Shown here piece by piece: positions 9,868-12,127 of a stretch of 64,000 bases of DNA. The stretch covers positions 124,001-188,000 of the forward strand of contig NZ_KQ948936.1 of assembly GCF_001514235.1 (NCBI RefSeq). The letters are read 5' to 3'. This DNA is from Streptomyces caeruleatus. GTDB lineage: Bacteria; Actinomycetota; Actinomycetes; Streptomycetales; Streptomycetaceae. The first letter of the stretch is position 1. Each line of letters starts with the position of its first letter. The notes under the pieces were generated by a model. That model was not told the origin of the DNA. It saw only the letters and a list, made by a program, of their open reading frames with translations, and ran no database searches. The translations under genes and the position numbers were made by a program.

Positions 9868-10436
9868 CGGGCGAGCAGCCCGCCGCCGAGCAGCCGGTCG
9901 AGTCGCTGCGCGACCTCGCCACCGAAGAGGCCGTGTTGAAGCTGCTCGCCGAGCGCGTGGCCGCCGCACAGAAGGACGTCAAGGCCCGCACACAGAAGGC
10001 CCTCGACGCCGCCGCGAAGCGCGACGGGACCGAGCGCGTCGGGGCGTTCCTCCCCGACGGCGAGCAGGTCGCCACGATCTCACTCCGCAAGGGCGAGACG
10101 GGACCGGTCGTCAAGGACATGGAAGCCCTCGCCCGATGGGTGCGCCAGCAGTGGCCCGACGAGGAGTGGACCGAGACCCGCATCGTACGGACCGTCAAAG
10201 ACTGGAAACTCGCCGAACTGCTCGCCGAGATGGACGCCGCCGGCGCGGCGAAGCTGGTCGACAAGGTGACCGGCGAAGTCCTCGACGTGCCGGGCGTGAG
10301 GATCGAGCCCACCCGCGCGCGCACGCACGCGATCACGTGGCGCACGGACGGACGGGCCAAGGTCGCCCAGGCGTGGCGCACGGGCGCCCTGTCCAAGCAG
10401 CTCGCCGCCATCACGGCGGGGGGTGACGCCGCATGA
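9864..10436 (+). CDS. Hypothetical protein of the ERF operon
   Basis: Protein of 190 aa. N-terminal helices (LLAERVAAAQKDVKARTQKA) precede a compact domain with ARWVRQQWPDEEWTETRIV and KVTGEVLDVPGVRIEP. Small proteins of this kind commonly follow erf in actinophages and are thought to be recombination accessories, but I recognise no catalytic motif. Coupled on both sides by ATGA overlaps. Confidence 0.65.
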   Translation: MTGEQPAAEQPVESLRDLATEEAVLKLLAERVAAAQKDVKARTQKALDAAAKRDGTERVGAFLPDGEQVATISLRKGETGPVVKDMEALARWVRQQWPDEEWTETRIVRTVKDWKLAELLAEMDAAGAAKLVDKVTGEVLDVPGVRIEPTRARTHAITWRTDGRAKVAQAWRTGALSKQLAAITAGGDAA

Positions 10437-12127
10437 CGCGCACCCTCGACAAGGCCGCGCAGCTGATCGCCGAGCGGTTCACGGACGTGCCCGGACAGCT
10501 CGCCCTCGACGAGGGCGACACGCTGCGCGTCGGTTCTCTGTGCAGCGGGTACGGCGGCCTCGACATGGCCGTGTGCGACGTCCTCGGCGCGTCCGTGGCG
10601 TGGCACTGCCAGTACGACCCCGACGACAAACACCAGTACGCCGCGCGCATCCTCGCGCACCACTGGCCGGACGTGCCCAACCACGGCGACGTGACGGCCG
10701 TTGAGTGGTCGGACGTCGAGCCGGTCGACGTCCTGACCGCCGGTTTCCCGTGCCAAGACGTCAGCCTCGCAGGCAAGCGCGCGGGCGTCGTCGGCGACAC
10801 CGTCGTACCCGCGGGCGTCATGGCGTGCGGTAACTGCCGGTGGGGCGACCACGACCACGCGACGTGTGAAGCGGCGTCGCCGTCCGGCGCCGTCCCCTCG
10901 CGCCTCGCCGGCATGGCCGCCGCCGCCGCGGTCGCCGAACTCAACGCCCGCGACCTCGCCGACCCGGCGGGCCCGCCTCCCGAGCGCGTGATCAAGGGAA
11001 CGCGGTCCGGCCTGTGGTTCCACGTCGCCCGCGCGATATCCGTACTCCGACCCCGATTGGTTGTGATCGAGAATGTGCGCGGACTTCTCTCCGCCAAGGC
11101 CGTTCGCAGTGTGGGACCAGACGGCGCGCCTGTGGATGAGGACGACGGAGACGCCGACACTCTTCGAGCTATCGGCGCCGTACTCGGCGACTTGGCCGAC
11201 CTCGGGTTCGATGCGGAATGGCACGTGCAGCGCGCATCCGACGTCGGGGCCCCGCACCAGCGCGAGCGCGTTTTCATCATCGCGTGGCCTGCTGCCGACC
11301 CCGACAACGAGCGAGTGGAACGGGCCGGGGGCCCCGGACGGGAACCGCAACGACACGTTGCGGGCCCGCATCCGGCAGCTGCCGACGCCCAGGGCGAGGG
11401 ACAGCAAGGGCGTGGGGTACGAGGACGGCCTACCGGCGGTCGTGCAGCTGCTCAAGACCCCGACCGCGCAACTCGCGGTGAACGGGGGGTCGCAGCACCC
11501 GGAGAAGAGGAAGCGGGGCGGGCACGGTCCGACGCTCGCGGACGAGGTCGAACACCTGCTACCGACACCGACCGTGGCGGACTCCCGGGGAACGAGAACC
11601 CGGCGACTGGACGGGACGCCGTACGGGCAGGGGAACGGCGAGACGCTGACGGACGCCGCCAGGCTGCTGCCGACGCCGAGGGCGAGCGACACGGGGACGC
11701 CGGGCCGTCGGGCAAGCGAGGGGTTCCGGCCGCCGCTGTCCGAGGTCGTGCTACCGATGTTCCCGACGCCGAGGGCGAGCGACGGCACCAAGGCGAGCCC
11801 GAACCAGAAGTACGGCGACGGGACGCCGACTCTGGCGAACGCGGCGGCCTCGATTGGGGCCCCTACGGCCCCGCCGTCGAGCGGTGGGAAGCGGTCACGG
11901 GCCGACCGGCACCCCGGCCAACTGACGATCGAGGCCGCCTAACGGCCGCGTTCGTCGAGTGGATGATGGGATTGCCCGCAGGCCACGTCACGGCCGTGCC
12001 AGGCCTGTCCCGCCCCGCCCAGCTCAAGGCGTTGGGGAACGGCGTCGTGCCCCAGCAGGCCGCGTACGTGCTGCGCTTCCTGCTGTACCGCGCCGGTATC
12101 GCCGAGCGGTTCGGACTGGCCGCGTGA
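10433..12127 (+). CDS. DNA (cytosine-5) methyltransferase
   Basis: C5-type DNA methyltransferase of 564 aa. Motif I LCSGYGGLDMA (about 36-46), motif IV GFPCQDVS with nucleophile C107, motif VI IENVRGL (212-218), motif VIII QRERVFII (276-283), and C-terminal motifs with WMMGLPAGHVTAVPG and LKALGNGVVPQQ. Between VIII and the end lies a 190-residue low-complexity stretch full of ADAEGER-like repeats, where target recognition should be. That stretch is overprinted by a second open frame (next entry). Likely protects phage DNA from host restriction. Coupled to both neighbours by four-base overlaps. Confidence 0.92.
   Translation: MTRTLDKAAQLIAERFTDVPGQLALDEGDTLRVGSLCSGYGGLDMAVCDVLGASVAWHCQYDPDDKHQYAARILAHHWPDVPNHGDVTAVEWSDVEPVDVLTAGFPCQDVSLAGKRAGVVGDTVVPAGVMACGNCRWGDHDHATCEAASPSGAVPSRLAGMAAAAAVAELNARDLADPAGPPPERVIKGTRSGLWFHVARAISVLRPRLVVIENVRGLLSAKAVRSVGPDGAPVDEDDGDADTLRAIGAVLGDLADLGFDAEWHVQRASDVGAPHQRERVFIIAWPAADPDNERVERAGGPGREPQRHVAGPHPAAADAQGEGQQGRGVRGRPTGGRAAAQDPDRATRGERGVAAPGEEEAGRARSDARGRGRTPATDTDRGGLPGNENPATGRDAVRAGERRDADGRRQAAADAEGERHGDAGPSGKRGVPAAAVRGRATDVPDAEGERRHQGEPEPEVRRRDADSGERGGLDWGPYGPAVERWEAVTGRPAPRPTDDRGRLTAAFVEWMMGLPAGHVTAVPGLSRPAQLKALGNGVVPQQAAYVLRFLLYRAGIAERFGLAA
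11073..11942 (+). CDS. Overprinted gene inside the methyltransferase: LPTPxASD-repeat protein
   Basis: A 289-codon frame, shifted +1 relative to the methyltransferase, fully inside it. It encodes six spaced copies of a motif like LLPTPRASD, preceded by WPTSGSMRNGTCSAHPTSGP. The two frames read the same DNA repeat: LLPTPTASD in one, AADAEGER in the other. From about 11290 to 11850 this frame has mostly G/C third positions, better than the methyltransferase frame, which also shows unusual codons where the overlap begins. No strong ribosome site precedes ATG 11073. It could be a true nested gene, a segment read by frameshifting, or a conserved shadow. Confidence 0.45.
   Translation: MCADFSPPRPFAVWDQTARLWMRTTETPTLFELSAPYSATWPTSGSMRNGTCSAHPTSGPRTSASAFSSSRGLLPTPTTSEWNGPGAPDGNRNDTLRARIRQLPTPRARDSKGVGYEDGLPAVVQLLKTPTAQLAVNGGSQHPEKRKRGGHGPTLADEVEHLLPTPTVADSRGTRTRRLDGTPYGQGNGETLTDAARLLPTPRASDTGTPGRRASEGFRPPLSEVVLPMFPTPRASDGTKASPNQKYGDGTPTLANAAASIGAPTAPPSSGGKRSRADRHPGQLTIEAA

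Follow-up and report, generated by a model that had tools for sequence, protein, structure and literature searches.

A second gene is nested in the +1 frame of a C5-cytosine DNA methyltransferase gene in the window analyzed here, a stretch of 64,000 nucleotides from the 10.3 Mb genome of Streptomyces caeruleatus. The original prediction had left a choice between a real nested protein and a variable domain reached by frameshifting. The substitution pattern in +1, the dN/dS ratios and the motifs support the former, in the sense that the nested frame is a real, selected gene, and comparison of loci indicates that many other phages have a gene nested within a gene in this way. We consider it likely that the locus encodes a two-polypeptide C5 methyltransferase, with a catalytic chain, alpha, and a nested specificity subunit, beta, resembling M.EcoHK31I and M.AquI with a different division of the conserved motifs. 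In such an enzyme alpha, read in frame 0, would supply catalytic motifs I-VIII, IX and X and a shapeless linker in the gap between VIII and IX. Beta would be translated from its own ATG at 11073, within the codons of the ENV motif, with a Shine-Dalgarno-like site in the codons before it. The N-terminal domain and LPTP array of beta would replace the target recognition domain, and the two chains would assemble into an active enzyme.

The alpha open reading frame covers positions 10433-12127 of the forward strand (frame 0, 564 amino acids) and matches Pfam DNA_methylase (4.4e-27) and phrog_116. It is a C5-cytosine DNA methyltransferase with the DNA_methylase domain, ENV, motif VIII and the GNxV of motif X all present. 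Motifs I-VIII are followed by approximately 180 residues predicted to be unstructured and then by motifs IX (RLTAAFVEWMMGLP) and X (QLKALGNGVVPQQA) at 11936-12061 (+), in frame 0 and constrained in that frame; we take these to be IX and X from the known motif order of C5 enzymes. Beta occupies 11073-11942 (+) in the +1 frame, starts with ATG and encodes 289 amino acids comprising an N-terminal domain and LPTP modules, so that both reading frames are as described when a nested open frame of 289 codons was first proposed inside the methyltransferase gene. Its translation matches phrog_1008, named 'DNA methyltransferase' (6e-30, best over residues 9-114), and gave no match in a Pfam search. A viral contig of 37,945 bases contains the nested frame and the N part of alpha, both at 100% protein identity to the window. 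The closest named phages with the gene are Streptomyces phages Darolandstone and Raleigh, in whose records 'DNA methylase' is the sole annotation at the locus.

Three stretches can be told apart along the overlap. From 11073 to 11282 (+) the DNA appears to be dual-coding, for ENV to motif VIII of alpha and for the N-terminal domain of beta. The stretch 11283-11850 (+) holds the LPTP modules and is selected as beta, with frame 0 reading as a predicted unstructured, stop-free linker. The C-terminal tail of beta (..PGQLTIEAA, 11851-11942 (+)) overlaps a conserved alpha stretch (WGPYGPAVERWE..DDRGRL) and is common to close relatives in the alignment. The modules, all on the forward strand, are LLPTP at 11289-11303, LPTP at 11379-11390, LLKTP at 11448-11462, LLPTP at 11556-11570, LLPTP at 11664-11678 and FPTP at 11760-11771. 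Six [LF][PK]TP motifs (four LPTP, one LKTP and one FPTP) thus bear out the number originally claimed, compared with 0.13 on average and never more than 2 in 5,000 synonymous permutations of frame 0. The accompanying claim that one DNA repeat yields two protein repeats also stands, as frame 0 reads ADAEGER/AADPDNER-type text there.

Base composition follows the same pattern. Third-position GC, said to be high in the nested frame, is 0.93 in +1 over 11283-11850 (GC by codon position 0.68/0.61/0.93, compared with 0.92/0.68/0.61 in frame 0), and frame-0 GC3 is 0.91-0.92 in the N and C parts of alpha. Unusual codons had been noticed in the methyltransferase from just before the overlap; codons ending in A or T do rise at about 11033, from 0-15% per 20-codon block before this position to 15-60% in the blocks from 11033 to 11932. 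The length of the +1 frame proves nothing, because +1 was also stop-free in 12% of trials with permuted frame 0; its openness is therefore not significant alone, and the case rests on the motifs and the substitution pattern.

LPTPxASD proteins had been said to occur in other actinophages, and tblastn finds them in 121 phage records; among the 40 LPTP matches listed, features were named methylase, methyltransferase or hypothetical protein. Relatives lacking the nested frame, an outcome that the original prediction had named as counting against it, did not turn up as the rule: nearly all of those examined keep it, with exceptions such as loci L065 and L058. For the N-terminal domain of beta we used a profile of the first columns of a 40-sequence alignment. 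All 252 matches of this profile among 276 sequences (repeats included; the 24 sequences without a match are left out of the 252) overlap alpha in +1, and no stand-alone beta gene was found with it among the 276. The 252 include 74 of the 76 loci fetched with beta queries.

The LPTP array is found in different arrangements with motifs VIII, IX and X. In a group of loci termed class C it shares a chain with motifs IX and X, and alpha ends soon after motif VIII. Regular expressions place IX and X both in beta at 50 of 249 loci and both in alpha at 94 of 249, counts that are lower bounds because the expression for motif IX failed at many loci, 51 of them with X in alpha and 28 with X in beta. Motif IX is in beta and X in alpha in two named phages, Acinetobacter phage ABMM1 and Lacticaseibacillus phage R23.9. 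At L065, which was spotted by eye and gives no match to the beta N-terminal profile, the array lies between VIII and IX in a single chain in frame 0; a search with this locus returned itself and one distant locus only. In the window, beta ends ahead of most of motif IX and ahead of X. The number of LPTP modules varies between close relatives. Taken together, the class C fusion, the split in ABMM1 and R23.9, L065 and the linkage to alpha place the LPTP array at the target-recognition position, and beta probably makes the DNA-recognizing part of the enzyme. From the sequence we infer that beta is translated in vivo and that its LPTP modules recognize the DNA target; assembly of alpha with beta is suggested by the linkage, the fusion and precedent.

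Beta could instead be a genuine overlapping gene with its own function, such as an anti-restriction or DNA-binding protein, acting independently of alpha. We regard this as improbable. Beta does have its own start and stop, and AlphaFold of beta alone gives no identifiable fold (mean pLDDT 49, pTM 0.20), a poor model that equally provides no fold support for a recognition domain. Against independence, the N-terminal domain never occurred without an overlapping alpha in the profile search, whose matches include 74 of 76 loci fetched with beta queries, beta is joined to IX and X in class C, L065 carries the array between VIII and IX, and the predicted structure of alpha has no structured stretch in frame 0 at the position where target recognition would be expected.

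Several loci depart from the common layout. L049 and L115 were considered as alpha-beta fusions and not used as evidence: motif VIII is missing and ENV leads straight into beta text in one frame, so they are likely frame slips, degraded copies or assembly errors. In L026, L027, L033 and L036 the +1 beta stops partway and more LPTP modules follow in frame 0 up to motif IX, with the frame switch near the beta stop codon. Beta also comes in a second form, undetected by the beta profile and with another N-terminus, in +1 frames of L175 (about 1863-2351) and L199 (from 2655); the overlap is kept, an LPTP stretch is present and the C-terminus resembles motif IX (LNPAWVEWLMGYP and LSPEWTEIAMGYP). A second, divergent LPTP-type locus (L090/L091) is present in the same bacterial genome at G000:C15:145879-146538 (-).

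The predicted structure of alpha is consistent with a specificity part located elsewhere. Residues 292-469 lack secondary structure in the AlphaFold model (10-residue pLDDT means of 26-45 over 291-470). Over most of the N and C catalytic regions pLDDT exceeds 80, and the mean for the whole chain is 60. Residues 117-191 and 225-244 are low as well, which means that the overlap is not the only poorly modelled stretch. The top PDB match of the folded part is M.HhaI (E 1.1e-11); mouse, human and plant DNMT matches were set aside as sharing only the catalytic fold. The target recognition domain of C5 methyltransferases sits between motifs VIII and IX, and AlphaFold predicts no structured domain of this kind there in the alpha chain.

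Frame 0 is nevertheless kept open across this stretch. The C part, located by profile with stops ignored, was found in 247 of 257 loci with an alpha motif, in frame 0 at 153 of them, in +1 at 88 and in +2 at 6. When it is in frame 0, that frame has no stop between motif VIII and the C part at 22 of 23 unique loci with GC below 0.52, where permutation of +1 synonymous codons gives 0.9 expected; the figures are 3 of 4 at intermediate GC (0.5 expected) and 101 of 101 at GC above 0.60 (39.2 expected). Loci with the C part in +1 have a stop-free frame 0 in 3/56, 0/5 and 0/19 cases at low, intermediate and high GC. These results suggest that alpha is read through to IX and X wherever these motifs are on alpha. 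The exceptions with the C part in frame 0 are L257, with 24 frame-0 stops, and L076, with 7; the enzyme is possibly further divided there, into three pieces. Considering the openness of frame 0 together with the missing predicted structure, frame 0 appears to encode a linker at the expected position of the recognition domain.

The start of beta carries its own signals. A TGA in +1 just 5' of the start (11064-11066 (+), a stop at codon -2) means that +1 translation must begin at 11073 or later. The ATG at 11073-11075 arises from the AAT-GTG of the catalytic ENV of motif IV (GAG AAT GTG, 11069-11077 (+)). A Shine-Dalgarno-like site, GGTTGTGATC, lies at 11059-11068 (+) within the L-V-V-I codons of alpha. 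Its duplex with the 16S tail was computed as -14.6 kcal/mol on L003, which has a sequence identical to the window, and no same-phase control position within 60 codons matches this strength.

Start positions were surveyed in 127 unique loci with both motifs, obtained from 173 sequences after 25 without a motif match and 21 duplicates were left out. At 37 of the 127 the +1 frame is closed just before ENV, and 36 of these 37 have AAT at ENV. Among the GC-rich loci of this group AAT is used at ENV in 31 of 32, compared with 13 of 163 for the other Asn codons of those genes. The +1 frame is open further upstream at 70 loci, where GC-rich members have AAC at ENV (58 of 60) and an ATG occurs 22-27 codons upstream of ENV in 48 of the 70. 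A third group of 15 loci has its first start about 6 codons past ENV, and 5 of the 127 have no LPTP motif in +1. For 33/36 starts at ENV, 38/49 at '-24' and 12/18 at '+6', the last with the start position fixed at +6, the anti-SD match at the start belongs to the strongest 5% found at positions within 60 codons. In the '-24' group the R-K-G codons ahead of the ATG often read AAAGGA or AAGGGA. These comparisons show selection for the start codon of beta and an unusually strong anti-SD match before it; codon choice at ENV and the anti-SD matches are signatures of internal initiation rather than frameshifting.

Initiation signals of this kind bear directly on the other option of the original prediction, frameshifting. 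As spelled out here, ribosomes would shift to +1 after motif VIII and back before IX, producing a single N-LPTP-C polypeptide. Constraint does pass from frame 0 to +1 near motif VIII and return to frame 0 near the C part, L065 has an N-LPTP-C enzyme in one chain, and methyltransferases appear among the genes known to contain a frameshift in the relevant passage of the PRFect paper (PMC10885494). However, this route requires two compensating shifts, the +1 constraint reaches upstream into ENV-motif VIII toward the selected ATG, and an enzyme made by shifting has no need for an open frame 0 in the LPTP region, which at low-GC loci with the C part in frame 0 is open far more often than expected. 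The frame switch of constraint is accompanied by a separate, selected ATG with its anti-SD match. The frameshifting option is thus unsupported, and we consider it very unlikely.

Between the window and Darolandstone, the +1 frame has a dN/dS of 0.14 over 11283-11850, compared with 3.65 for frame 0; in two further ungapped pairs the +1 ratios are 0.13 and 0.20 and the corresponding frame-0 ratios 4.3 and 2.0. Over the same stretch the +1 translation shares 94.7% of its amino acids with that of Darolandstone, and the frame-0 translation 81.6%. Substitutions at frame-0 positions 1/2/3 number 29/9/6 here, 20/11/33 in the N part of alpha and 5/3/17 in its C part; because frame-0 position 1 is the +1 wobble position, the LPTP frame is the one conserved as protein. 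The pattern extends to other loci, many of which are interrelated, so that locus and pair counts are not independent events. At least 25 disjoint GC-rich pairs exist, and the 25 compared give 1086/522/537 with position 1 largest in 25/25. Low-GC disjoint pairs give 188/97/81 with position 1 largest in 6/7, the sole exception being L202/L211, where position 3 is marginally largest. Class C pairs, whose frame 0 closes soon after motif VIII, give 932/377/271 with position 1 largest in 20/20.

Constraint on both frames, as originally claimed, is found in 11073-11282 only. The alpha protein is conserved over this stretch, from ENV to motif VIII, and frame-0 4-fold divergence in six disjoint pairs is 49/230, compared with 139/374 in the non-overlapped flanks (p 4e-5); the drop is smaller when only the upstream flank is used for comparison (50/162). 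With the beta N-terminal profile, the +1 translation of ENV-motif VIII scores above each of 60 synonymous permutations in 187 of 191 other loci, some of them close relatives of profile members (median 73.6 bits observed, 23.7 permuted). The four failures are L058, L065, L175 and L199; L175 and L199 have a different beta N-terminus and L065 has its LPTP array in frame 0. Dual coding rests on these permutation and 4-fold tests, because +1 dN/dS in 11073-11282 is only 0.69-0.99 (pairs with L015 were excluded for this segment, as an indel distorts their values). In the beta tail, 11851-11942, 4-fold divergence in the six disjoint pairs is 32/99, with no significant loss of synonymous divergence in frame 0.

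In 11283-11850 the claim of double constraint fails, as amino-acid constraint there is that of +1. Constraint in a single frame had been put forward as an outcome speaking against the nested gene; it does hold in this stretch, yet the constrained frame is the nested one. The frame-0 stretch is not constrained as protein and seems only to be kept stop-free. Co-selection of both frames, with the frame-0 LPTP stretch having its own protein function in some phages, is a most unlikely reading. Cys-rich modules (CPTCGC..FCAGC..CTDPELGR) recur in L008, L019 and L022; the window, in contrast, has no such module, its frame-0 dN/dS exceeds 1 and no structure is predicted. The Cys-rich insert of these three loci is perhaps zinc-binding, and frame 0 rather than +1 may be constrained there. 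That the methyltransferase frame alone is functional and the LPTP frame a shadow of GC-rich ADAEGER repeats can practically be dismissed: +1 openness is unremarkable and ADAEG with C- or G-ending codons gives PTPR in +1, but the +1 wobble position takes more substitutions than either other position in all GC-rich and six of seven low-GC pairs, frame-0 dN/dS is 2.0-4.3, and GC3 is 0.93 in +1 against 0.61 in frame 0.

A two-polypeptide enzyme would change how such loci are read. Many phage 'DNA methylase' annotations would be gene pairs, with the likely specificity part absent from records such as those of Darolandstone and Raleigh and present elsewhere as a split gene or hypothetical protein. 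Wander gp79/gp78 is annotated as two 'DNA methylase' genes, and Samy gp49/gp50 as a methyltransferase and a 'domain protein', gp50 being noted as related to phrog_1008. In Rhodococcus phage ReT1v-2 (L173:2001-2675) beta is called a hypothetical protein next to a 153-base 'DNA methyltransferase' scrap, and the annotation misses the alpha frame, N part included, that spans both called features. If the proposed reading is correct, a clone of alpha with recoded codons would no longer encode beta and should yield an inactive enzyme. In addition, the locus is a testable and exceptionally clear instance of dual coding, with many examples in nature, where selection on the two frames can be followed separately along a single gene. 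A broader proposal, to which we give even odds, is that phages of several phyla keep the recognition half of the enzyme as a modular gene out of frame inside the catalytic half. The array would be reshuffled to change specificity as the enclosing frame reads a shapeless linker, the start and ribosome-binding site would be spelled by conserved-motif codons, and motifs IX and X would have changed frames repeatedly.

In searches of the open-licence PMC literature we recognized no paper describing such a nested arrangement in phages. PMC9409062 was considered as a source on phrog_1008 and overprinting and rejected, since the passages in question concern phrog_10089 and lambda Rz. The phrog_1008 family is named for a methyltransferase, whereas beta of the window has no catalytic motifs.

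Two characterized enzymes offer the closest comparisons. Lee et al. (1995) reportedly found the gene for the small M.EcoHK31I polypeptide within that for the large one, read in a different frame. The window shares this layout: here too the gene for the first polypeptide holds another, out of frame, whose selection is read from sequence. According to the passages on these enzymes in PMC3404938, the large M.EcoHK31I polypeptide carries motifs I-VIII and X, the small one only IX, and the predicted TRD was placed in the large subunit; beta of M.AquI carries the rest of the variable region and motifs IX-X. The window differs from M.EcoHK31I (YGGCCR) in having motif IX in alpha, in frame 0, and an LPTP array as beta, and the division with IX in beta and X in alpha is found instead in L174 and L175. 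It differs from M.AquI in that alpha carries IX and X in frame 0 and encloses beta fully, and a small polypeptide with the variable part, IX and X is found in class C relatives, for example L028, L063 and Wander gp79/gp78. Since its motif division differs from both, the window system is a member of neither type. Several short tandem recognition units between motifs VIII and IX also characterize the multispecific enzymes known from Bacillus phages, for example SPbeta and phi3T, and the LPTP array resembles them in this tandem layout. It differs from them in frame, since their units are in frame within one chain.
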